A stretch of DNA of 40,607 bases from a virus: positions 1-40,607 of the IMG/VR virus record IMGVR_UViG_3300022912_000020; one strand, written 5' to 3'. Shown one piece after another: positions 7,258-40,607 of the stretch. Numbering within the stretch: the first letter of the stretch is position 1; every line of letters starts with the position of its first letter. Both the position numbers and the translations under genes were made by a program. The notes under the pieces are model-generated. The model saw only the letters and a program-made list of their open reading frames with translations, was not told the origin of the DNA and did no database searches.

Positions 7258-9960
7258 ATGGCTAAAAATAAAAATAGAAAATTTTTAAATAGTAATAATT
7301 CTGGACTTTATAAAAATAAAGGTATTGATAATAAAAATATTTTTAATTATATAGATGTTAAAAGTAAGGTTGAGCCTATTGATTTAGCAATAGAGTTGAA
7401 TGAGCAAGAAAGCAATGGTGAGCAAAATGTATTCAATGTCTTTGTTTCTTTGCCTGAGAGCTATGTTATGGATTATATAAATGGCATCTCAGAGCTATTC
7501 TTTGGGTTGTTTGATGATAATAATGATTCTCTTTATGATAAATTATATAAGTTTGTTTATAAGGATAAGTTTGGTTTCAAAGACTTAGATTCTTATAGAG
7601 CACATGTTAACACAATTTCTAAAAACTTTACTGTTGTTAATAACTTGTTAAATGTTTTAAAATATAACAATAATATTTCTTCTAACTTTGGCTCTATTGG
7701 TTTATATGGCTTAGTTAATAATGAGTTTTTGTCTAACAATATTAATGTTTACGAGCATGAAGCTGGCAGACTTAGTAATAAAGCGCAATCGCCAAAGGAT
7801 AGGGTAGCTAACAATATTACTAATGTTGATTTGTCTAATAGATATATTAAGAACAATGTTGATAAGTTGAGGGTAATTAAAAGTGATGTTAACATTGCTG
7901 CTTCTAATAAAAAGTTTTTGCCAATTTTAAATTATTCTGATTATAATAATGTTTTGTTAGATAAAAACAGATCTAACACATCAAATGAAAACGTTTCAAT
8001 TAATGATAATTATTTGCGTGTAGATAGTTATGCCGATGACTTAAAGCTTAGAAGTAATTCTGTTTATCTTGGCGATAGATTCTTTAAGAGTTTTAATGAG
8101 GCATATTTTCACATGTTACTTAATGGCAAGTCTATATCTAATATTTTTAGTAATGATGTTGTTTGTGATGTTTATGATCTTCTTGTTGGTAATTTAGATA
8201 AAAAAGCCTTAAGATCGGTTAGCAATGTTAACAAAAACGGCAATTATGTTTTTAATGATTATGATTCTAATAAATACGGTATTGATTTTGGTGAATATAG
8301 GGTTGCATCATCGAACACGTTTGGTAAAAATAGGTATGTTGCTGGTAAAAATAATAGTATTAAATTTGTTGTGCCTAAAGACATAAGTATTAGTAACATT
8401 GGCAACAATATAAAAGTTTTTGGTGATAATAAAGATGATAGATCGAGCGTGCCTAATAATGTAGTGAACCTATCAGATTTAGGTGTTCCACCTAAGCCAG
8501 TAAGTCATGCTAGTAGTGTTGTTACTAGCTTTGGTAATTTAAGTATAAATATTTCAATAGATGGTGTAAAGTGTGACTTTATTAAGATCTATAAAAGAAG
8601 ATTAGGCTTTAATAATAAAAAGATGAAAACAAAAATGGATTTTGTTAGTAATGTTAGTGTTGAAAAGGATTTGAGCAAATCTAAGTTTGTTAATTTTGTT
8701 GATAAGAAATACAATTATAGCGGTGATATATTTGAATATAGGTTTATTACTGTTTTAAATGGCGTTGAGTCATATGATTTTTATGATATGGTTGCAAAAA
8801 CATCTAATGGTGACTTTGGTTCTAAATATAAGAGGGGGTTGGTGCAGAGTAAGCCAAATATATTTGTCAAGGAGAACGGTAATAAAATAAATGTTGATAT
8901 TGAAGGCATAGCTGGTGAATTTGAGTTTGCAAATCTATTAAGACGTAACGTATCTAGGTTCGAAAATAAATTTAATGAATGCGGTAGTGCGAAAAACATA
9001 TCAAAGAGTGGGAAGGTAAGTTTTGTTGACAACAATTTAACTGAATATAATATATATGAATATTCGGTTAAGGTTTTTGATAGGTTCCATAATGCCTTTG
9101 AGGATAGTGGTAATTTTTCAACTATACAATATAGAAGAAATGTTAGGACTGATCAAGATGGTAAAATATATGATGTAAGGGCTGATGTTAAAGTGGGCAA
9201 TAAAAATGATATTAAAATTAATGTTGACACAAAGATTGATGACTCAGCATTTGATGACGAGGGCGTGGCTGCTATATTAATTGACTCCTTAAAGAATAAA
9301 CAAAAGTCAGACGAAGTTGTTGTTAAATCGTTCGCAGAAGAGTTGGAGCGTGCAGATATAAAGGAGTCATTATCTAAAAAATTACCAGCATATAAAGTAG
9401 AGTTGGTTAATAAGGATAATGGTGAAGTTTTTAACTCTAATTTTGTTATGGGAAATAAAATTGATTTTTCCAGGATTAAGAAATTAGGGAATATCAATGT
9501 TGACAATACTAATTATAAGGTAAGGGTGAGTACATCTGTTGTCAATTTAAATGAATTTATTGATACTGATGAGAGAAAGAAAAAATATATGATAGATAGA
9601 AGTGAGATACCGAATATTGATAATATTGCATTGAATGTTTTAGATGAAAATGTTGTTAATGAGTTAGACATAGAGTTGCCTGCAAAAAGGATTATAAAGC
9701 TTAAATATGGCTCATTGTTGATAAGAAAGATTGCCTATCTATATGAAATTTCATTAGAAAGCGTTATTGATGATGATAATGTTGATTTTTATGTTTTAGA
9801 GCAAAGAGAGTCTGGAACTAGTATGCCATGGCAGTACGTTGGAAAAAGTATAGATGAAAAGTTTGTTATAGATGTTGGCATTAATAACATAAATAGGAAA
9901 TTTGAATATAGAATGAGGCCATTTATGCTTGATAATAACTTTGGTTCAATTATTAAATAA
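7258..9960 (+). CDS. Large virion protein with fibronectin-III-like repeats (900 aa)
   Basis: It starts immediately at the stop of the preceding gene (TAAATG), with no separate SD of note. The first 400 or so residues are Asn/Lys/Asp-rich and unrecognised. From about residue 409 (GVPPKPVS) there is a fibronectin-III-like segment: beta strands, then FIKIYKRR in the place where such domains carry a Y-x-R or Y-K-R strand. A second similar segment lies at about residues 530-640 (NIYEYSVKVFDRFHNAFEDSG). Another Ig/FnIII-like region seems to lie near the C-terminus (QYVGKSIDEKFVIDVG). Such domains in phage tails are usually surface modules that contact the host or other proteins. The gene at 13338-15218 carries a clearer related domain. 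The FnIII assignment is by pattern only and should be treated as moderate. Confidence 0.55.
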   Translation: MAKNKNRKFLNSNNSGLYKNKGIDNKNIFNYIDVKSKVEPIDLAIELNEQESNGEQNVFNVFVSLPESYVMDYINGISELFFGLFDDNNDSLYDKLYKFVYKDKFGFKDLDSYRAHVNTISKNFTVVNNLLNVLKYNNNISSNFGSIGLYGLVNNEFLSNNINVYEHEAGRLSNKAQSPKDRVANNITNVDLSNRYIKNNVDKLRVIKSDVNIAASNKKFLPILNYSDYNNVLLDKNRSNTSNENVSINDNYLRVDSYADDLKLRSNSVYLGDRFFKSFNEAYFHMLLNGKSISNIFSNDVVCDVYDLLVGNLDKKALRSVSNVNKNGNYVFNDYDSNKYGIDFGEYRVASSNTFGKNRYVAGKNNSIKFVVPKDISISNIGNNIKVFGDNKDDRSSVPNNVVNLSDLGVPPKPVSHASSVVTSFGNLSINISIDGVKCDFIKIYKRRLGFNNKKMKTKMDFVSNVSVEKDLSKSKFVNFVDKKYNYSGDIFEYRFITVLNGVESYDFYDMVAKTSNGDFGSKYKRGLVQSKPNIFVKENGNKINVDIEGIAGEFEFANLLRRNVSRFENKFNECGSAKNISKSGKVSFVDNNLTEYNIYEYSVKVFDRFHNAFEDSGNFSTIQYRRNVRTDQDGKIYDVRADVKVGNKNDIKINVDTKIDDSAFDDEGVAAILIDSLKNKQKSDEVVVKSFAEELERADIKESLSKKLPAYKVELVNKDNGEVFNSNFVMGNKIDFSRIKKLGNINVDNTNYKVRVSTSVVNLNEFIDTDERKKKYMIDRSEIPNIDNIALNVLDENVVNELDIELPAKRIIKLKYGSLLIRKIAYLYEISLESVIDDDNVDFYVLEQRESGTSMPWQYVGKSIDEKFVIDVGINNINRKFEYRMRPFMLDNNFGSIIK

Positions 9961-26446: not shown

Positions 26447-26935
26447 ATGAGAAACAGAATGAGAAAAATGGATGGAACTGGCCCTAATATGTGTGGTCGT
26501 GGCCGTAAGTTTGGTGATGCCTTTGGTGTAACTTGGCCTGAAATGCAATCAAGCCTATTTAAATTTTTTGATGATGATGGTAATGTTAGTCTTAATGATC
26601 AGTGTCAAAGTTATAAGTATTATGTGGATGATCATGGACTTAATGTCGATGTCCCAATTCCAGGTGTTGAAAAGGAGTGGGTTAAGTTAAGTACAGAGGC
26701 TGATTGTAATGGGGATAATGTTTTGATCTTTAAAGTTGACATTGGCGATAAGAATCCAGAAGAGTTTAAGGGTTTTGCTCCAGATCTTAAGGTTAATAAA
26801 GTTTGGATTATTGACAACATGTATGATTGTTCAAAGGTTTCTGCTGAAGTTGTCAATGGTGTTCTTAAGGTTTTCATCCCAAAAGATAAAAAGCTGGTTG
26901 CTGCTATGGAGCCAAAAGAAATTACAATCAAATAA
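26447..26935 (+). CDS. Hsp20 / alpha-crystallin family small heat shock protein
   Basis: The start is ATG 26447 because a perfect AGGAGG (26434-26439) lies seven bases upstream; an earlier in-frame ATG at 26396 falls within the promoter. The 162-residue product has a disordered basic N-terminus (MRNRMRKMDGTG) and an alpha-crystallin domain. The domain opens at DDHGLNVDVPIPGVEKEWVKL and closes with the family signature A-x-V-x-N-G-V-L-K-V-F-I-P (SAEVVNGVLKVFIPK). A short C-terminal tail (EPKEITIK) resembles the I-x-I oligomerisation motif. It is an ATP-independent holdase. T4-like cyanophages often encode Hsp20, thought to help capsid protein folding or host stress survival; that role here is inference. 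It sits directly before the terminase. Confidence 0.85.
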   Translation: MRNRMRKMDGTGPNMCGRGRKFGDAFGVTWPEMQSSLFKFFDDDGNVSLNDQCQSYKYYVDDHGLNVDVPIPGVEKEWVKLSTEADCNGDNVLIFKVDIGDKNPEEFKGFAPDLKVNKVWIIDNMYDCSKVSAEVVNGVLKVFIPKDKKLVAAMEPKEITIK

Positions 26936-30785: not shown

Positions 30786-31634
30786 ATGGAAAAATCTATT
30801 TCTCATAATAAAAAACGAAACGTTGCACTTATTTGTGAATTTTTTATTAGGTATGTTTCTAAATGCTTAATAGACGAAGATTTCCATGAGGCTGAGAGGG
30901 CTGTAGAAGTTTTCGATAGAAACTTTCATGATGACTCATTAATCAAGCAAGAGTTAAGAATTGTTTCTGCTATAACTGACACAAACATAAAGACAAAAGA
31001 AGCTGCATATAGAATCCTCTCAGAAATTAAAGGGGCAGTATCTAAAGTTAATTTTAAAAGGGTAGAAAAAGAAAAGAGCAAGTTAATTAAAGAGATTAAT
31101 TATAGCTTTGGTCCATCTTTTTACAATGAGCGGGTTGACAATTATGATAAATTTGCCTCTATTCATAATTTATTAAATGAATATAGGGGAAATGGAAGTA
31201 TTAATAATAAAGCGCATATTGTTAAGTTTGAAGAAGATGTTGTTGAATATCTTTTAAAGGAAGACAAGGTTGCAAGTAAGTTTGAGGTCAGCAACAAAGA
31301 TGTCTATAATAATGTTGTTATTTCTGTTATGAAGAAAAAGTTTTTTGAAAAATATAATAACAAGTTAAATGATGTTCAAATTAGATTGTTGGCTGCAAAG
31401 ACTGGTATATTAAATGATTCTATTGAGAATGTTGTTGTTGAATCAAAAATAGAAATAAGGAAGGCTTTAAATGTTTTGAAGGAAAGCAATGATATTCTTG
31501 AAAGTGATATAACAATGAAGGCTATTAACGAGGTAGAGGGTTATTTTGATAATAATGACATGAAGATTGGCAGTGAACAATGTGTTAAATGCTGGCTTAA
31601 TGCAGCAGAATTTATTAACGAAGCAAATAAATAA
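30786..31634 (+). CDS. Uncharacterised helical head-cluster protein (282 aa)
   Basis: ATG 30786 lies two bases after the portal stop, with GGAGGAAG inside the portal's last codons as SD, so the two are probably co-expressed. The protein is almost wholly alpha-helical and charged, with many Lys, Glu, Asn and Asp and repeated amphipathic stretches. An early hydrophobic helix contains LICEFFIRYV. It lacks the early (L/I)-x-E site of its downstream neighbours; the nearest is CLIDE at about residue 28. Scaffold, core or neck assembly roles are possible from position between portal and protease. I do not recognise a family. Confidence 0.6.
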   Translation: MEKSISHNKKRNVALICEFFIRYVSKCLIDEDFHEAERAVEVFDRNFHDDSLIKQELRIVSAITDTNIKTKEAAYRILSEIKGAVSKVNFKRVEKEKSKLIKEINYSFGPSFYNERVDNYDKFASIHNLLNEYRGNGSINNKAHIVKFEEDVVEYLLKEDKVASKFEVSNKDVYNNVVISVMKKKFFEKYNNKLNDVQIRLLAAKTGILNDSIENVVVESKIEIRKALNVLKESNDILESDITMKAINEVEGYFDNNDMKIGSEQCVKCWLNAAEFINEANK

Positions 31635-31648
31635 GAGGAATATATAAG

Positions 31649-31969
31649 ATGAATAAGAAAGAAAAGAAATTTTTAAGAAAATTGTTTGAAAGTGCAATTG
31701 AACAAAAAAATGAAATTCTAAATGAAGAGAAGGTTGTTATTAATAATAAATTGTTGGCTTCTGTTGGCATTATTAAGAGGGATATAAATAAAAAGGAAAG
31801 GGCTTTAATTGAAAATAAAGAGCTTAACCTGTATGAAGTCATGTTTATTACTGAAGATAACAAGGAAAAGATTTTAGTAGTGCTAGCTGAATCAGTTGAC
31901 GACGTAGAGGGTAAAATAATGCAAGAGAATTCTAGTTGTGAAATCCTTGCTATTGAACAGGTGGGTTAA
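31649..31969 (+). CDS. Small head-cluster protein with capsid-targeting-like N-terminus (106 aa)
   Basis: ATG 31649 has AGAGGA as SD. The N-terminal 30 residues form a basic then acidic helix with two candidate (L/I)-x-E protease sites, LFE at residues 12-14 and LNE at 24-26. The second half, YEVMFITEDNKEKILVVLAESVDDVEGKI, looks like a small alpha/beta domain. Position and N-terminus suggest a packaged or core protein processed by the prohead protease at 36731-37369. This is inference; no family is recognised. Confidence 0.55.
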   Translation: MNKKEKKFLRKLFESAIEQKNEILNEEKVVINNKLLASVGIIKRDINKKERALIENKELNLYEVMFITEDNKEKILVVLAESVDDVEGKIMQENSSCEILAIEQVG

Positions 31970-31973
31970 TATT

Positions 31974-32609
31974 ATGAGTAATAATGATCTGAATTTATCA
32001 ATAAAGAGTTATTTTGAACATATCTTAAATGAACAAGTTGTTTTTGATAGCACACCAAACTTTGAAGAAATTACAGCAAGGTTGTCAAAGCAAACATTAG
32101 CCTCAAACGCTCAGTTGAGAGATTTGTTGGACGGTGTTTTGTTTGCAAAAAGGGAGGCTTTGGCAAAGGCCATTGAGATTATAGAAGAGAAGGTTGACAA
32201 TAGACGAATTCAGGTTTGTGGTATAAAGACAGATGAAGAAACTGATGTTAACAATCCTGTTGTTTATTTTTCTGTAGAGCTTATAGACACTGGAGAGGTT
32301 TTTGCTGGCTTTAATTTACATGTTGATTATGATGATTATATGGTGAAGGTCAATTATGATAAAGCTGGACAAAAAAATAGATTAAAGAATATATCATCAA
32401 TCTATGCTAAGGATGTTATTGATAAATTAGGCTCGTTAGAAAGTAATGAATTGTTGGAGATAGACTTAGTTGTTAAAAGGGTCAAGAAGAGGGACAACTA
32501 TATTAATTCTTATTATAAAAAAGTTGATAAATTGTTGTCAGATATGAGTTATTTTGAAATTGCTTTGGTTAAATATATATTGCAGAATGGATATAAAGGA
32601 ATCAAATAA
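31974..32609 (+). CDS. Head-cluster protein with capsid-targeting-like N-terminus (211 aa)
   Basis: I choose ATG 31974, four bases after the previous stop and behind AGGTGG; an in-frame GTG at 31938 would overlap the previous gene and has no SD. The N-terminal helix ends in HILNE (L18-N19-E20), a candidate prohead protease site. The remainder is mixed alpha/beta with the charged stretch AKAIEIIEEKVDNRRIQV and a strand-rich middle (VVYFSVELIDTGEVFAGFNL). The function is unknown. The TAA stop shares bases with the ATG of the next gene region (TAAATG), so translation is probably coupled. Confidence 0.58.
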   Translation: MSNNDLNLSIKSYFEHILNEQVVFDSTPNFEEITARLSKQTLASNAQLRDLLDGVLFAKREALAKAIEIIEEKVDNRRIQVCGIKTDEETDVNNPVVYFSVELIDTGEVFAGFNLHVDYDDYMVKVNYDKAGQKNRLKNISSIYAKDVIDKLGSLESNELLEIDLVVKRVKKRDNYINSYYKKVDKLLSDMSYFEIALVKYILQNGYKGIK

Positions 32610-34448
32610 ATGAGTATTTTGTTAGAAAATATTGATATGCTTCTTGTTGAGTCAAGGGTTAGTGATGCAAAAGAAAAGTTCCCAGAACATAAAGAGAAGG
32701 TAGATTATTTTGCAGAATATTTACCTGGAAATAATAAATATTTGATGTGGGCAATGAGAGAGTGGGTTAAAGATCCAGGCCAAAGTTTATATATTGTTGA
32801 TGCTATTAAAAGATTTAATGATAATGTTCAAAGGTTAACAAATAAAGATATTAACTCTTATAAGTCTTTGGTCGAATTAAGAACAATGTTGAATAATCTA
32901 GATAAAACTAGTAAAGAAAAAAAAGAAGAGTTAAAAATAAGGATGACTGAAAATGCACATATAATTTATAACGATAAAAATTATATGGTTGTGCGACCAT
33001 TAAGTGAAGATGCTAGTTGTTATTATGGAAGGGGAACGCAATGGTGCATATCATATACAAAAAGCGAAAATTATTGGAATCAATATACTTCTAAAGGGAA
33101 GGCGTTTATTTTTGTTTTTAGGAAGAGAGTTATGGGTAATAAGGAGGAAGATGATTTAGGTTATGGTGGCAAGGTAGCTTTAGTGTTTGATGCCAATGCC
33201 GATCTTGAAACTGCTTTTGATGTCTTAGATAGAGAGATAATAGGTCATAGTTTGGGTGGCATATTGTTTGATTTGTTTGATGAAGATGAAGAAATTGTTG
33301 ATATAGTTGAGGATGGCATCAATCAAAGTTTTGACAAGGAATCTCCTGGTAAGGCTATAGAGGAACATTTACAGCAGTTAGTTAATGCCTTTGAACAAGA
33401 TAGTAATGGTTATGTTATGCTGGATTATGATGAATATGATGCTGGGAGGTATGATTTCAGGGGGTATGGTTCCTTTCAGGTTAAGTTACAAAAGGGAGAC
33501 AGATTTAATGAAAGTGGTGCTGGTGAAATTGATGGTACAATTAGTGGTATTTTAAATAACAATTATATTTATACAAGTGATTATATTGAGGTTGATGAGG
33601 AAGGAGACTTTATAAGTGTTAGGTTCGATTTTAATATGGAACAAGATGATGATTATGAGGAGTTTGCTGAACGTATGAAAGAAACTGATGATAGCATAAA
33701 AGATATTGTTGAAAATGGGATAGTTTATGATGCATTGGTTGATGAAGGATATATTATTAGCAAAGATGTTAATCAAGAAAGGTTGATTAGGGGTTTATTT
33801 GGAAAGTCTAAAAAGTTAAAGAATATAGAATATAATGGTGAAGATTCTTTATATAAATATTTTATGGGTTTGGAATTTAAGTTTGATTTAGAGGAGTTGG
33901 CAAGAAAAAAGGGTATAGGTAATTTTAATGCAGATGAGTTTGTTAGTAGTCAGCTAGGTGTGTTTTTAAGTAGTGTATTTAAAAACGTTTTACATGATAG
34001 TGTTATGGGTATGTTGATTAATTTTTCTAAAAAAACATCTTCTAAAGAAAGACAACTTTTTAAGGATAAGATGGGTGAGTTAGAGATTAATTCTTATTTA
34101 GATCCTGCTTCAATAGATAAAAGCGATTTAGATATTACTACTAATGTAAAGAAGACTATGTATAGCGCCAATTGGAATGCAGAATATATTATTAAAAATA
34201 AGGGTATATATGAAAATGTTTTTATTGAATTAAAAAGAAAGTCACAAAGAGACATAAATAAGGTTTATGGGTATTTAAATGGTATTGTTGGGTTGGATCA
34301 AAATATAAATATATTGTATGATGATTTATATAAAAAGTTATTAACTTTTATTGATGTGGCTATGTCTAATTATGTTAAAAAAGAGAATTATGAATTTAAT
34401 AGAGAGTATAAGAAAAATCTAATTAACTCTAAAATTATTGGGAGATAA
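32610..34448 (+). CDS. Large head-cluster protein with SCYYG/WC module (612 aa)
   Basis: It begins at the TAAATG junction with AAGGA upstream. The N-terminus (MSILLENIDMLLVESR) is an amphipathic helix with L12-V13-E14 as a candidate protease site. Residues 39-200 form a module shared with the product of 35604-36677: GNNKYLMW at 40-47, then a helical linker, then DASCYYGRGTQWCISY at 134-149 (C137, C146), then beta strands through KVALVFD. After that an acidic region and a 250-residue unrecognised C-terminus follow. I recall similar YG-x-x-T-x-W-C segments in other large phages without a known function. It is probably packaged in the head, possibly delivered with the DNA; that is inference. The conserved Cys, Trp and Tyr could mark a catalytic or metal site, which I cannot prove. 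Confidence 0.65.
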   Translation: MSILLENIDMLLVESRVSDAKEKFPEHKEKVDYFAEYLPGNNKYLMWAMREWVKDPGQSLYIVDAIKRFNDNVQRLTNKDINSYKSLVELRTMLNNLDKTSKEKKEELKIRMTENAHIIYNDKNYMVVRPLSEDASCYYGRGTQWCISYTKSENYWNQYTSKGKAFIFVFRKRVMGNKEEDDLGYGGKVALVFDANADLETAFDVLDREIIGHSLGGILFDLFDEDEEIVDIVEDGINQSFDKESPGKAIEEHLQQLVNAFEQDSNGYVMLDYDEYDAGRYDFRGYGSFQVKLQKGDRFNESGAGEIDGTISGILNNNYIYTSDYIEVDEEGDFISVRFDFNMEQDDDYEEFAERMKETDDSIKDIVENGIVYDALVDEGYIISKDVNQERLIRGLFGKSKKLKNIEYNGEDSLYKYFMGLEFKFDLEELARKKGIGNFNADEFVSSQLGVFLSSVFKNVLHDSVMGMLINFSKKTSSKERQLFKDKMGELEINSYLDPASIDKSDLDITTNVKKTMYSANWNAEYIIKNKGIYENVFIELKRKSQRDINKVYGYLNGIVGLDQNINILYDDLYKKLLTFIDVAMSNYVKKENYEFNREYKKNLINSKIIGR

Positions 34449-34454
34449 AAATAA

Positions 34455-34781
34455 ATGAAAGTAAAGCTAACAAAAGGTGAACTTAAAGATATTTTAAAGG
34501 AAGAGGTTAAGTATAATGCAAATTTAGGTTTGGATGCATTTAAAAACAGTCCTGATTTTAAGAGTGTTATTGAGGATGTGATTATTGCGATGAAAGGTTT
34601 TTCAAACACAACCCCAGTTGGGTTCTTTGAGTTGGTTAAACAAAGATATGAAATTGATCTTTATAAGACTTTTAGTGAATTTAATGATAATTTAAAAGAT
34701 ACATATAATAATCTTTATGGTGATGTGTTTAAAAGGGAAAAAATTAAACAATCAATTGAAGATAACAAGGTAGGGGAATAA
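34455..34781 (+). CDS. Small head-cluster protein with capsid-targeting-like N-terminus (108 aa)
   Basis: ATG 34455 has GGGAG upstream. The N-terminus MKVKLTKGELKDILKEE closely follows a pattern I recall from large aquatic phages (M-K-x-x-x-T-K-x-x-L-x-x-I-x-x-E-E), with the candidate cleavage L14-K15-E16. The remaining 90 residues are helical and charged with no recognised domain. Stop to next ATG is six bases. The likely fate is targeting to the prohead interior and trimming by the protease; that is inference. Confidence 0.58.
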   Translation: MKVKLTKGELKDILKEEVKYNANLGLDAFKNSPDFKSVIEDVIIAMKGFSNTTPVGFFELVKQRYEIDLYKTFSEFNDNLKDTYNNLYGDVFKREKIKQSIEDNKVGE

Positions 34782-34787
34782 ATAAAA

Positions 34788-35159
34788 ATGAAAATTAATG
34801 TAAGTGAATTTGCAAATTTTTTAAAAGAAGAGTTAAATAAAGCTAAAAAAAGTGGCAAACTTGATCAGGCATTGAAAGTTGTTAATGAGTTTAAAGAAAA
34901 GTTATATCCTGGCTTTGGTCCTGAAATTGAAATTGAGTTCGATAATTTTCCAGTTTCTTTTTATGTTGTTGAGAAGATTGGAAGGACTGATTCACCTAGC
35001 TTGGGGGATATTGTATATGAGTCTAACATTGTGCAATTAATGAGGGCTGCAAAGGGTGGACTAGATCCAGAACATATTCATGGTATATATTTAAGCAAAG
35101 ATGATGCCCTGAAGAGGGCTAAACAATTAATTTCTGGAGGAAATGAAGATGATGTTTAA
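34788..35159 (+). CDS. Small head-cluster protein with capsid-targeting-like N-terminus (123 aa)
   Basis: ATG 34788 follows GGGGA. The opening helix MKINVSEFANFLKEELNK holds a candidate protease site L12-K13-E14. A second part, GPEIEIEFDNFPVSFYVVEKIG, is strand-rich and shows some resemblance to IGIQIKFDNDGFVLYYIVADV in the next product, so the two small proteins may be distant paralogues. The C-terminus, DPEHIHGIYLSKDDALKRAKQLI, is helical. The gene overlaps the next by 11 bases. Function unknown. Confidence 0.58.
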   Translation: MKINVSEFANFLKEELNKAKKSGKLDQALKVVNEFKEKLYPGFGPEIEIEFDNFPVSFYVVEKIGRTDSPSLGDIVYESNIVQLMRAAKGGLDPEHIHGIYLSKDDALKRAKQLISGGNEDDV

Positions 35160-35517
35160 TAAAGATGTTGGTATGATTGATTATCAACAATCAGCAATTA
35201 AAACAATTATAGACAGTCTGGAAAGTATGAACCCAAACATAGGCATCCAAATAAAGTTTGATAATGATGGGTTTGTTTTATATTATATTGTTGCTGATGT
35301 AATTGATTATAAGGGTTCTCCAAAATATAAACAATGTTTTGAACAAGGTTATGAGATTTTGGATGATACTGAAAAAATTCTCAAGAAAAAATATAAAGAG
35401 TCGGTTGGTGAAACTTTAAAAATTAAGCAAGAAAGTGAGTCAGAATCGTTTGAGGCGCTTTCTCCTGCTCTTAGTAGGTACTACATTAGAATTTTTAGAA
35501 AATACATTGTGAGCTAA
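35149..35517 (+). CDS. Small head-cluster protein (122 aa)
   Basis: Three in-frame ATG codons lie at 35143, 35149 and 35152. TCTGGAGG ends at 35140, so ATG 35149 (eight-base spacer) or 35152 fits best. The gene overlaps the previous one by 11 bases. Unlike its neighbours it has no clear early (L/I)-x-E site. Its middle (IGIQIKFDNDGFVLYYIVADV) resembles a segment of the preceding product, which hints at a duplication. The C-terminus is Ser/Glu-rich then basic (RYYIRIFRKYIVS). Function unknown. Confidence 0.55.
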   Translation: MMFNKDVGMIDYQQSAIKTIIDSLESMNPNIGIQIKFDNDGFVLYYIVADVIDYKGSPKYKQCFEQGYEILDDTEKILKKKYKESVGETLKIKQESESESFEALSPALSRYYIRIFRKYIVS

Positions 35518-35551
35518 ATTTGATTTTTTTGGTATTGATATGGAGGCTTAT

Positions 35552-35587
35552 ATGTGTAATAAAAAAAGGTCAATTTTAAACTTGTGA
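35552..35587 (+). CDS. Possible 11-codon mini-gene or leader peptide
   Basis: In the 86-base gap between two head genes, GGAGG (35542-35546) stands five bases before ATG 35552. The frame reads MCNKKRSILNL and ends at TGA 35585-35587, 16 bases before the GTG start of the next gene. The SD is as good as those of real genes. It could be a leader that couples translation, a decayed gene remnant, or chance. Confidence 0.25.
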   Translation: MCNKKRSILNL

Positions 35588-35603
35588 TAAGAGGTGCTTC
35601 TTT

Positions 35604-36677
35604 GTGAACTTATTAGAAAAATATATTAGATTATTGTTGGCTGAGGGAAGGTTGGAGGATGTTCGGAATAAATATTTTAACAACAAAGATCTTGTTAACA
35701 ATTTATCTAGTCAAGATCCGTCAGGTAACAATAAATATCTTTTATGGATGACTCGACAAGTTGTTTATGGTGGGGAAAATGAGGCGAGTGTTATTGACTT
35801 GGTTAATAAATTTCATAAAAACACTCAAAGGCTGAAGGGTGATAAGAAGGACTTATATAAATATAATAGTTTGAGCGATCTTGGAAGTGAATTAAGCAAA
35901 GTTTCAGACTCTTCAAAGCGTCAACAAAAAAAAGCTGTAAAGAAACAGGGTGCAGACATTGTATTTGAGAATGATGAAGTTGTGGTATTAATTCCGAAGA
36001 CTCATAAAGCCAGTTGTTATTATGGAAGCAATACGAAGTGGTGTACGGCATGGAAGAACAACTCAAGTCATTTTGAAAAATATTTAGGAGAAGTAACATT
36101 ATATTACATATTGCCAAAAGATGGTGGGGAGAAGGTTGCAGTTGCGGTTGGTGAGGGTGATAGCAAAGAGGTGTTTGATTCTAAGGATAATGAGAAGAAT
36201 TTAAGTTGGCTGAAAGGCAAGTTGCAACAATATAACATTCCAAGTTCGATATTTAAGTATGTTCCATTTACGGGGATGATAAGAAAGGATGATGGGACAA
36301 TATTGTGGTATCTAAATGGACTTCTTCATCGAACTGATGGTCCTGCAATTGAAACTCCTGGTGGATTGAGATCGTGGTATCTAAACGGAGAGCGCCATCG
36401 AGAAGATGGTCCTGCAATTGAGTGGGCTGATGGAACAAAAGAATGGTGGTTGAATGGAAAGCTTCATCGAAAAGATGGTCCTGCTATTGAAGACTCTGAT
36501 GAATCAAAAAAATGGTATTTAAATGGAAAGCTTCATCGAACTGATGGCCCTGCTATTGAGTGGTTTAGTGGAATAAAAGAATGGTATCTAAAGGATAAAA
36601 GACATTCAGAAAGTAGGTACTGGCAAGAAGTGGGGTTAGATAAGAAAGAAGAGTATTATAAGGGATTAAAAAAATAA
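35604..36677 (+). CDS. Head-cluster protein with SCYYG/WC module and MORN/YwqK-like repeats (357 aa)
   Basis: The start is GTG 35604, with AAGAGGTG upstream; the N-terminus MNLLEKYIRLLLAEGR carries L12-A13-E14, a candidate protease site. Residues 40-195 are collinear with the product of 32610-34448: GNNKYLLW at 41-48 and KASCYYGSNTKWCTAW at 135-150 (C138, C147). From residue 235 four 23-residue repeats follow, of the type W-Y-L-N-G-x-x-H-R-x-D-G-P-A-I-E, then a degenerate fifth. These resemble the MORN-variant repeats of the YwqK antitoxin-like family, also seen in some phages, giant viruses and intracellular bacteria, where they probably form beta-hairpins for protein contacts. It may be a head-packaged effector with its own recognition domain; that is inference. 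No toxin domain is recognised with certainty. Confidence 0.68.
   Translation: MNLLEKYIRLLLAEGRLEDVRNKYFNNKDLVNNLSSQDPSGNNKYLLWMTRQVVYGGENEASVIDLVNKFHKNTQRLKGDKKDLYKYNSLSDLGSELSKVSDSSKRQQKKAVKKQGADIVFENDEVVVLIPKTHKASCYYGSNTKWCTAWKNNSSHFEKYLGEVTLYYILPKDGGEKVAVAVGEGDSKEVFDSKDNEKNLSWLKGKLQQYNIPSSIFKYVPFTGMIRKDDGTILWYLNGLLHRTDGPAIETPGGLRSWYLNGERHREDGPAIEWADGTKEWWLNGKLHRKDGPAIEDSDESKKWYLNGKLHRTDGPAIEWFSGIKEWYLKDKRHSESRYWQEVGLDKKEEYYKGLKK
36306..36581 (+). repeat. Four tandem 69-bp coding repeats (23-residue WYLNG/HR.DGPAIE units)
   Basis: Beginning at the TGG at 36306, four in-frame units of 69 bases run to 36581, with a fifth, decayed unit after it. Blocks such as cttcatcgaa and gatggtcctgc recur almost unchanged between units, so the copies are fairly young or homogenised by recombination, and copy number may vary between related phages. 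Confidence 0.85.
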
Positions 36678-36730
36678 AAAGTAAATTTAATAAAATTGAA
36701 TATAATTATAATTAGCTGAGGAATTTAAGT

Positions 36731-37369
36731 ATGTCAAAAAAACTATTAATAGATGATTTCTTTATTGATGTTAAAAACAACACTGGCCTTATAAAAGAGT
36801 CTATAGAGAATGGGAGAGACTTTATATTGACTGGTGTTATACAGCGGGCAGATTCTGTAAACGCTAACGGTAGAATATATCCTAGACATATTTTAGAGGT
36901 TGAGGTTGATAATTACAAAAAGATTATTGCAGAAAATAGAGCTTGGGGAGAGGCAGATCACCCAGATGATTCGACAGTATCATTAAAGTCAACTGCTTTA
37001 AGGATGTTAGATATTTGGTGGGATGGAAATGAAGTTTGGGGTAAAATAAAAATATTGCCAACAAGAGTTGGAAAAGATATTATGGTTATTGTTGAGGATA
37101 GTGGTGTTATTGGGATTTCATCCAGGGGCGTTGGTGAGACAAAAAGACAGAATGATAATGAAGTTGTAACTAGTTATACATTAGTTGCTTTTGATCTTGT
37201 ATGTGAGCCATCAACAAACAATGCAATAATGAAACATAATAATGCTGTTGAGTTGAAAAGAGAACAAGTGGAAAATATCTTAAATAAAACTTTAAACAAG
37301 TCAGATAGAGTATATAGAATTTGTAATAGAATATTAAATAGATGTGATACTTATAGTTGTGAATTATAA
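36731..37369 (+). CDS. Prohead core protease (T4 gp21-like, serine peptidase)
   Basis: The 212-residue product matches gp21-type prohead proteases. The core opens with GVIQRADSVNANGRIYPRHIL; the catalytic His is H77 in WGEADHPDD and the catalytic Ser is S130 or S131 in VIGISSRGVGE. A later strand reads VAFDLVCEPSTNNAIM, as in the family. It assembles in the prohead core, activates, and trims capsid, scaffold and internal proteins after (L/I)-x-E. Its own N-terminus holds GLIKES (I21-K22-E23), a plausible self-cleavage site. Length equals T4 gp21 (212). ATG 36731 has GAGGA upstream. In T4 scaffold and major capsid genes follow gp21; here small acidic and fibre-like genes follow instead. Confidence 0.9.
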   Translation: MSKKLLIDDFFIDVKNNTGLIKESIENGRDFILTGVIQRADSVNANGRIYPRHILEVEVDNYKKIIAENRAWGEADHPDDSTVSLKSTALRMLDIWWDGNEVWGKIKILPTRVGKDIMVIVEDSGVIGISSRGVGETKRQNDNEVVTSYTLVAFDLVCEPSTNNAIMKHNNAVELKREQVENILNKTLNKSDRVYRICNRILNRCDTYSCEL

Positions 37370-37381
37370 GGAGTTAAATAG

Positions 37382-37615
37382 GTGAACTTATTAGAAAAAT
37401 ATATAGAGAATATAATTAAAGAAGAATTTAAGTTTTACAGGTTTGATCCTAAGTCTATGCAGATAACAGGCATGTCAACTAGTGGTGATATTGGTTGGTA
37501 TGATGATATTGATGATATGTTGGCAGGCGGATATGGCGATGCAGGGGGTGATTACGGAGATGATGGTGGTGGTGACGATGATGGTGGTGATGATGGAGGA
37601 GATGGAGGAGAATAA
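37382..37615 (+). CDS. Small protein with targeting-like N-terminus and Asp/Gly-rich tail (77 aa)
   Basis: The start is GTG 37382 behind AAGGAG. The first 23 bases are identical to those of the gene at 35604, giving the same MNLLEKYI helix, with I12-K13-E14 as a candidate protease site. The last 35 residues are almost only Asp and Gly (GGGDDDGGDDGGDGG), recalling the acidic stretch in the portal extension. A small very acidic protein near gp21 is reminiscent of T4 gp67, the prohead core protein, but there is no recognisable sequence match and the comparison is inference. Cleavage would free a strongly acidic peptide. Confidence 0.6.
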   Translation: MNLLEKYIENIIKEEFKFYRFDPKSMQITGMSTSGDIGWYDDIDDMLAGGYGDAGGDYGDDGGGDDDGGDDGGDGGE

Positions 37616-37617
37616 TT

Positions 37618-37941
37618 ATGGGTGACATTAAATTTGAAAGACGATTGATAAAGGAGTTTTTTGATAAGCTGGATAGAGATAGGTTTTTACCACCAACAGA
37701 AGATGAGGAAAAACATCCTTATTTAAGTGTTAATGAGGTAGAGGAATTGGGAAGTTTATTGTCAGATATTAGTTCTGCGTTTATAAAGTTAGAAAAAATA
37801 GGCATTACAATTGGTAGTGATTTGTTGCATATTTTTAATCCACAAGAAGTTGATTCTTTTTTGAAAGAATTAGATGGGTTTTTTGACGAGTTAACAATAA
37901 TTAAAGATGACATTGAAAATAAATTGTCAGGGAGAGAATAA
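37618..37941 (+). CDS. Small acidic head-cluster protein (107 aa)
   Basis: ATG 37618 has a GGAGGAG SD and lies two bases after the preceding stop. The opening MGDIKFERRLIKEFFDKL contains I11-K12-E13, the same early (L/I)-x-E layout as in neighbouring genes. The rest is acidic and helical (VEELGSLLSDISSAFIKLEKIG, then EVDSFLKELDGFFDELTIIKDDIENKL), suited to coiled-coil packing, as in scaffold or core proteins. No family recognised. Confidence 0.58.
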   Translation: MGDIKFERRLIKEFFDKLDRDRFLPPTEDEEKHPYLSVNEVEELGSLLSDISSAFIKLEKIGITIGSDLLHIFNPQEVDSFLKELDGFFDELTIIKDDIENKLSGRE

Positions 37942-40266: not shown

Positions 40267-40607
40267 ATGTCTACATTTAAAACAACTGATATATACGTTA
40301 GTAATAATGCCCATATTTCGGGAACATTATATACAGATAGTGTTGAGTTTGAACAGCTAGTTGTTTCGAGTTCAGTATATTTTCCTAACAACCTGTATGT
40401 TTCTGGAACTTCTGAGTTAAAAGATCTAGATGTAGATACAATGTATGTGTCAAATAATGCTTATTTTTCTGGAACTTCTGAGTTAAAAGATCTAGATGTA
40501 GATACAATGTATGTGTCAAATAATGCTTATTTTTCTGGAACTTCTGAGTTAAAAGATCTAGATGTAGATACAATGTATGTGTCAAATAATGCTTATTTTT
40601 CTGGAAC
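40267..40607 (+). CDS. Repeat-containing fibre-like protein, 3' truncated by window edge
   Basis: ATG 40267 starts six bases after the preceding stop (AAG the only weak SD). The frame stays open to the window end. After MSTFKTTDIYVSNNAHISGTLY and a short linker, a 22-residue unit (SGTSELKDLDVDTMYVSNNAYF) repeats perfectly. Each unit pairs two short strands separated by turns, as in beta-helical fibre shafts, and the first degenerate units upstream (NNAHISGTLY, NNLYVSGT) show the same N-N-x-x-x-S-G-T pattern. It is probably a fibre shaft subunit with a variable number of repeats. The missing C-terminus would likely hold the trimerisation or receptor domain. Confidence 0.65.
   Translation, partial: MSTFKTTDIYVSNNAHISGTLYTDSVEFEQLVVSSSVYFPNNLYVSGTSELKDLDVDTMYVSNNAYFSGTSELKDLDVDTMYVSNNAYFSGTSELKDLDVDTMYVSNNAYFSG
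40402..40607 (+). repeat. Perfect 66-bp tandem repeats, three full copies plus start of a fourth
   Basis: Copies begin at 40402, 40468 and 40534, and an eight-base start of a fourth is seen at 40600. They are identical base for base and keep the reading frame (22 codons each). The window ends inside the array, so the true copy number is unknown. Confidence 0.95.

Follow-up and report, generated by a model that had tools for sequence, protein, structure and literature searches.

Interchangeable N-terminal leaders, probably capsid-targeting propeptides, in the head modules of uncultured T4-like phages

RESULTS

Leader-bearing genes in the head module

The stretch of viral DNA described here (the window) is 40,607 nucleotides long and is the entire 40.6-kb IMG/VR record IMGVR_UViG_3300022912_000020. 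It holds a T4-type head module, with genes for a terminase (27050) and a portal (28735) and a gene at 30786, followed by the genes of 31649-36677, an S77-family prohead core protease gene (36731-37369), two small genes, and fibre-like genes. Genes are named here by their first position, and Table 1 gives the features. Our subject is a short N-terminal leader, or tag, borne by eight proteins of the region 31649-37941. An initial annotation had placed an (L/I)-x-E site near the start of each of the eight, as well as IKE at residues 21-23 of the protease; all eight proved to be open reading frames where it had put them, every residue that it quoted is exact, and IKE23 of the protease is likewise present.

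All eight leaders are 13 to 20 residues long and end in (L/I)-x-E. In the same stretch, 35149 and the protease 36731 have no site at residues 11-20, and the upstream gene 30786 has none near its start. An [LI]xE ending at residues 12-16 is found in 7 of the 10 genes of 31649-37941 versus 1 of the other 23 window genes (Fisher 2e-4; binomial 2e-7 against the proteins' own internal rate), and residue 14 itself is the Glu in 5/10 versus 0/23. The cluster rows are partly dependent in these counts: 32610 is a paralogue of 35604, whose MNLLEKYI leader is also that of 37382.

Table 1. Leaders, genes, and cargo discussed in the text (window positions unless a contig is named)
Feature	Position	Strand	Description
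Large terminase, 539 aa	27050..28669	+	Opens head module; precedes portal, an order shared with relatives and with cultured phages Mel-JY01 and immuto; assigned by position, without a profile match
T4-type portal, 682 aa	28735..30783	+	Assigned by position and size; 100% match in sibling contig G024
Post-portal gene, 282 aa	30786..31634	+	Place kept in relatives; start HNKKRN.A..E; without leader
Leader of gene 31649-31969	31649..31690	+	MNKKEKKFLRKLFE, LFE14; weaker fit, -3 hydrophobic absent
Leader of gene 31974-32609	31974..32033	+	MSNNDLNLSIKSYFEHILNE, LNE20
Leader of gene 32610-34448	32610..32651	+	MSILLENIDMLLVE, LVE14; body of CYYG-WC family, 612 aa
Leader of gene 34455-34781	34455..34502	+	MKVKLTKGELKDILKE, LKE16; resembles K-class leader
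Leader of gene 34788-35159	34788..34829	+	MKINVSEFANFLKE, LKE14
Leader of gene 35604-36677 (GTG start)	35604..35645	+	MNLLEKYIRLLLAE, LAE14
Cargo of 35604	35646..36677	+	CYYG-WC domain, then HRxDGPA repeats
Prohead core protease, family S77	36731..37369	+	PF03420 E 2.7e-24; PHROG 207 E 5.8e-44
Leader of gene 37382-37615 (GTG start)	37382..37423	+	MNLLEKYIENIIKE, IKE14; 77-aa body, very acidic, gp67-like
Leader of gene 37618-37941	37618..37656	+	MGDIKFERRLIKE, IKE13; weaker fit, -6 hydrophobic absent
Swapped cargo: P-loop kinase	L370 vs L018		59% identity overall
Swapped cargo: 2H-phosphodiesterase-like protein	L315 vs L022
Swapped cargo: two of unknown function	L309 vs L016; L342 vs L085
Ribosomal protein S21 gene in relatives	L010:10952-11164; L004 5170; L015 11511; L017 11039; Mel-JY01 L221 13155		Mel-JY01 annotation agrees

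A register shared with T4 internal proteins

Aligned on the Glu, the leaders have hydrophobic residues at -6 and -3 and L or I at -2. We wrote this as a refined motif, [LIVMFYW]..[LIVMFYW][LI].E by residue 22, which fits 6 of the 10 cluster genes (31974, 32610, 34455, 34788, 35604, and 37382) versus 0 of the 23 others (Fisher 1.9e-4; internal-rate binomial 1e-9). The same register is found in T4 internal protein IPIII (MKTYQEFIAE), whose Y4, F7, I8, and E10 lie at -6, -3, -2, and 0. Mutants have shown that IPIII depends on residues 4 and 7 for targeting and on residues 8 and 10 for processing, and Asp at position 10 blocks processing and leaves targeting intact (PMC9026906). Hydrophobic residues occupy the equivalents of these two targeting positions in six of the eight window leaders, all except 31649 and 37618.

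Because the refined motif was picked after the leaders had been seen, its replication in other contigs and in T4 outweighs its P value in the window. As a control, it marks 16 of 267 T4 gene calls, including IPII, IPIII, gp24, gp68, and gp2, and its single match in gp23 is the known cut site, E65. It misses IPI and Alt, so the motif alone is neither complete nor specific.

The lineage of the window

The leader MNLLEKYIRLLL(V/A/I)E, seen in the window on 35604 and 37382, is not widespread; it is confined to four contigs, G024, G025 (L003), G026, and G027. G024 is of the same species as the window. Contig G026, from the sample of L003, matches the end of G027 at 100% identity, and the tetranucleotide correlation between G027 and the window is 0.979, on which grounds G027 is probably another part of the window's phage.

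The refined motif is found in 12 of the 19 genes of a 20-kb late region of G027 versus 7 of 115 elsewhere (4e-8). Several of its MNLLEKYI proteins are paralogous to one another, and some of the tagged genes adjoin tail-sheath genes. HRxDGPA-repeat proteins encoded by the non-late genes of G027 are leaderless, so that the same cargo repeat exists with and without a leader; in L059 the repeat follows a leader of the K class described below. The reverse complement of G027 (L167-L171) also encodes, at about 24-91 kb, many small proteins with a K(Y)K.GD.VWV start along with the leaderless HRxDGPA-repeat proteins.

Two leader classes in related phages

A search with the protease gave 21 loci. At many of them, with proteases 39-46% identical to that of the window, nonhomologous small genes among the terminase, portal, and protease genes open near-identically, with MKIT(N/K)xQLKQIIKEEL. 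The refined motif is found in 30 of 60 genes between portal and protease in these relatives versus 17 of 154 elsewhere (4e-9), although two of the thirteen loci counted (L004 and L020) have zero motif genes in that interval.

These replications bear on whether the window pattern arose by chance, L/I/K/E-rich N-terminal helices often yielding L-x-E. The pattern was noticed only after reading, and the [LI]xE background is about 1% per position. The enrichment in the window is nonetheless repeated in G027 and in the relatives, and the site is conserved in the CYYG-WC family (below), the one family with homologues to compare, so that chance is a very improbable source of the pattern as a whole. 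For 31649 and 37618, taken singly, chance is possible.

Two leaders recur among the relatives. A degenerate DNA scan for the K leader, MKITKxQLKQIIKEE, gave at least 120 stretches, and at least 169 unique proteins carry it, with 166 bodies that fall into at least 129 clusters without detectable similarity (median length, 105 aa). The W leader, MKLLxENWRKYLxE (also written MK...E.W..(F/Y)L.E), is found on at least 107 proteins with at least 74 body clusters, and at least 19 loci carry both leaders. Since pattern searches favour conserved leader forms, these counts are lower bounds for those forms and silent on others. Thus, like MNLLEKYI on the window's 35604 and 37382, each leader is common to otherwise unlike proteins. 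Their domains include P-loop kinase, zeta-toxin-like kinase, NUDIX, M23 peptidase, L,D-transpeptidase (YkuD), GNAT, protein kinase, and 2H phosphodiesterase, and several enzyme domains begin at residues 21-28, directly behind the leader. A PADLOC scan of the W-tagged cargo gave scattered single matches only. A tblastn search of the cultured phages with the 22-aa K leader gave a single weak match, the query being too short to say much.

Further candidate leaders were seen in passing. A third class, MKI(K/R)IIKKxxLNE(A/E), stands on proteins of 381-413 aa in L017 (7952), L018 (6395 and 7651), and L022 (6628). In the 440-kb Salicola phage SCTP-2 (L163), the neighbouring genes 33, 34, 36, 37, and 40 encode unlike proteins with the starts MKVKHITQYLFES, MKIRHLYEN, MKVKHILFEN, and VKITELFES, perhaps another leader family. 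Upstream of the terminase gene of the cultured Flavobacterium phage immuto (L222:4966-6266), two adjacent genes for different proteins, one annotated as cob(I)alamin adenosyltransferase, have the common leader FLxENKLTxN(A/S)xxLKE (MADNFNLRSFLTEN and MENFDLKKFLVEN). Polynucleotide-kinase-like and 2H-phosphodiesterase-like proteins bear leaders in L016, L018, and L022 (genes near 8849, 9277, and 8780, respectively) and adjoin each other in L022, which suggests RNA-repair enzymes carried in the head.

Leaders and bodies are exchanged

In four cargo families, members from different phages bear different leaders, K in one and W in the other (Table 1). The finding of one leader on unrelated bodies, together with one body under different leaders, argues for a targeting module. 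Descent from common ancestors, with paralogues retaining only their first 15 residues, would suit 32610 and 35604 and the paralogous MNLLEKYI proteins of G027; we regard it as extremely unlikely, as it is contradicted by the swaps and faces at least 129 and at least 74 dissimilar clusters that include kinase, NUDIX, M23, YkuD, 2H phosphodiesterase, GNAT, and protein kinase bodies.

Within a locus, DNA likeness is 0.85 over the 45-nucleotide (nt) tag, compared to 0.32 over the 40 nt upstream and 0.34 over the 60 nt downstream, and 31% of codons differ at unchanged tag residues. This synonymous turnover, with the unlike flanks, indicates that selection acts on the peptide. The same two observations contradict a DNA- or translation-level element (a start region, a ribosome-loading signal, or a recombination hot spot) that encodes a helix incidentally. 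Such an element would fit a tag that starts at the start codon, often in gene-dense runs, but tag copies inside one genome use varied codons, and this explanation is hardly credible.

Conservation of the site in the CYYG-WC family

IMG/VR holds at least 244 relatives of the CYYG..T.WC (CYYG-WC) domain found in 32610 and 35604, and some of them carry an entire W leader in front (L230). Among nonredundant homologues, 51 of 53 end their leader in hydrophobic-x-E at residue 5-22. Here the Glu is kept while the rest of the leader diverges, the comparison that the initial annotation had proposed as a check. In an alignment of 44 sequences, E14 is one of nine invariant columns and L12 is more than 90% conserved, values that the leader filter behind the 51/53 count slightly favours.

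A distant homologue, EST35_0205 of phage PA5oct, about 29% identical to the domain over 140 aa, is annotated as a virion structural protein by electrospray ionization-tandem mass spectrometry (ESI-MS/MS), and a viral structure library ties the 35604 domain to viral structural relatives that include the PA5oct structural protein. The models of the CYYG-WC domain have confident helices and strands with low pTM (0.42 and 0.48), and a comparison of the domain with the PDB gave no significant fold match. EST35_0205 starts with MKLFEVFTLYE, and the PA5oct genome has a T4-type protease, but its N terminus lies outside the refined register.

Protease, portal, and capsid proteins

A T4 portal is present in 17 of 18 tag-bearing contigs; PF07230 is matched by the portal of tag-bearing phages other than the window's. 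The S77 protease, the presumed cutter of the leaders, is found in 11 of 12 tag-bearing contigs that reach 100 kb or more, the only size class in which its co-occurrence is clear. It also occurs in 5 of 18 random contigs of 34-92 kb, which makes its co-occurrence weak evidence. Eight tagged fragments are without S77 and gp23 and, as fragments, are uninformative either way.

In relatives, (L/I/V)-x-E stands directly ahead of the conserved mature start of the major capsid protein. A capsid gene was not found in the contigs of the window's phage, whose own capsid would presumably be cut by the rule seen in these relatives.

The capsid sites bear on a further reading, that the helices escape cleavage and serve to dock proteins where the head, portal, or tail is assembled, with L-x-E just one part of the helix pattern. 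The continuous helix around the site in the AlphaFold model of 35604 and the tagged genes beside tail-sheath genes in G027 speak for such docking. The invariant residue of the CYYG-WC leader is nevertheless the E, with L/I two before it, which is the published gp21 rule, and the capsid protein sites obey the same rule. Moreover, 67 of 129 K-tagged families, among the matches listed, have a second L-x-E at residue 20-24, comparable to the redundant propeptide sites of phiKZ (PMC9026906). We consider docking without cleavage unlikely.

Other features of the head module

Searches of Pfam and PHROGs gave no confident match for gene 30786-31634, whose place is kept across relatives and two cultured phages, or for 31649, 31974, 34455, 34788, and 37618, with only PHROG 7919 at 0.0012 for 34455. 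Directly upstream of the terminase gene is an Hsp20/alpha-crystallin-like gene (26447-26935; PF00011, 1.2e-4). At the other end, a fibre-like gene contains a near-perfect 66-bp tandem repeat (40396-40607; 3.2 copies, 99%), which may be why the assembly stopped there. The head module of several relatives includes a ribosomal protein S21 gene (PF01165, 3.5e-15 in L010) between the gp67-like gene and the fibre/scaffold genes.

DISCUSSION

The leaders are very probably capsid-targeting propeptides of the T4 internal-protein type, cut by the S77 protease and carried by a mixture of packaged cargo and core proteins. As the prohead assembles, the hydrophobic helix face (-6 and -3 from the Glu) would dock on the prohead core, and the protease encoded next door would cut after (L/I)-x-E, freeing the mature form within the head. 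Most core proteins would afterwards be largely degraded, and cargo proteins would remain beside the DNA and accompany it into the host. Related phages attach leaders of this kind to scores of otherwise unlike proteins, among them likely enzymes of host takeover or counter-defence.

Several observations weigh against this interpretation. In the AlphaFold model of 35604, one continuous helix spans residues 3-23, the site included, and leads on into the domain; local unfolding would be required for cleavage. The motif is found in 3 of 24 PA5oct proteins detected by MS versus 1 of 32 others, which is not significant in the one 50-kb region compared. The bodies of 31649, 31974, 34455, 34788, and 37618 are without a confident homologue beyond their own species, and 31649 and 37618, the weakest members, fall outside the refined register. 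S77 is not enriched in tag-bearing fragments of 50-100 kb relative to random contigs, and in some 280-kb contigs the tags lie far from the portal. What the sequences show is that unrelated proteins share leaders, that one cargo can change its leader, that the leader is conserved as protein and the site within it is kept, and that the genes lie in the head module; docking, cleavage, packaging, injection, and cargo function are inferred.

The initial annotation had taken the whole cluster for a head-packaged set, several times larger in content than a simple core and possibly delivered to the host with the DNA. The pattern of a targeting module supports the first part, with the reservation that some members resemble core proteins rather than ejected cargo. 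The small, very acidic 37382 adjoins the protease gene, as gp67 does in T4, and is probably a core protein, although it follows the protease gene, whereas gp67 precedes it, and the likeness is one of size, acidity, and place only. The sequence FEHILNEQ of 31974 is identical to the start of a PA5oct protein encoded in the scaffold position, and 31974 is perhaps a core protein too; 32610, 34455, 34788, and 35604 are probably cargo. The claim about size is fair if G027, with about a dozen more such genes, is the same phage (compared to IPI-III, Alt, and gp67/68 in T4), an identity that is itself only probable.

The closest known system is that of T4 IPI-IPIII, in which unrelated proteins likewise have a short N-terminal leader with an (L/I)-x-E end and hydrophobic residues at -6, -3, and -2, with S77 in the genome (PMC9026906, PMC3012670, PMC12373910). 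T-even internal proteins were already known to share the leader alone (PMC3012670, PMC12373910), with at least 10 leader-bearing internal proteins reported (PMC12373910). The phages described here differ in their leaders (MNLLEKYI, MKIT..QL..IIKEE, and MK...E.W..(F/Y)L.E rather than MKTYQEFIAE) and in having many more carriers than the roughly four proteins of T4, many of them enzymes, whose packaging is predicted from sequence. T4 Alt, a packaged and injected ADP-ribosyltransferase with a 7-residue propeptide (PMC9026906), is a precedent for a large enzyme, such as the 612-aa cargo of 32610, behind a short N-terminal propeptide; no Alt homologue was found among the window genes. The ejection proteins of the giant phages phiKZ and SPN3US have propeptides cut after Glu, at S/A-x-E in phiKZ (PMC9026906). 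There, too, many head proteins are cut after Glu and travel in the head until they are ejected, but the protease is diverged and the site is S/A-x-E rather than L/I-x-E.

We found no mention of the K, W, or MNLLEKYI leaders in open-access full text, a search that leaves subscription papers and preprints mostly outside. The leader classes, the enzyme cargo, and the scale thus appear undescribed, while the kind of system is known from T-even phages. On balance we lean toward the broader view that uncultured T4-like phages (contigs up to about 290 kb) use an undescribed general head-loading code of interchangeable L/I-x-E leader classes, cut by S77. Under this code, as many as tens of proteins per phage would be loaded and delivered together with the genome, among them polynucleotide kinases, 2H phosphodiesterases, and NUDIX, protein kinase, GNAT, M23, and L,D-transpeptidase enzymes.

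Injected internal proteins are a first-line counter-defence of phages; in T4, each of IPI-III acts against its own type IV restriction enzyme and blocks it (PMC12373910). Such proteins are invisible to homology searches because only the leader is shared. If the proposed code is real, the leader would be a sequence flag in metagenomes for injected host-takeover and anti-defence proteins. As a packaging signal, so short a motif would pick out, from many unknown phage genes, those active in the first minutes of infection, and it would turn a long list of orphan genes into testable candidates, and it would widen the set of known head-loading signals, so far drawn mainly from T4.

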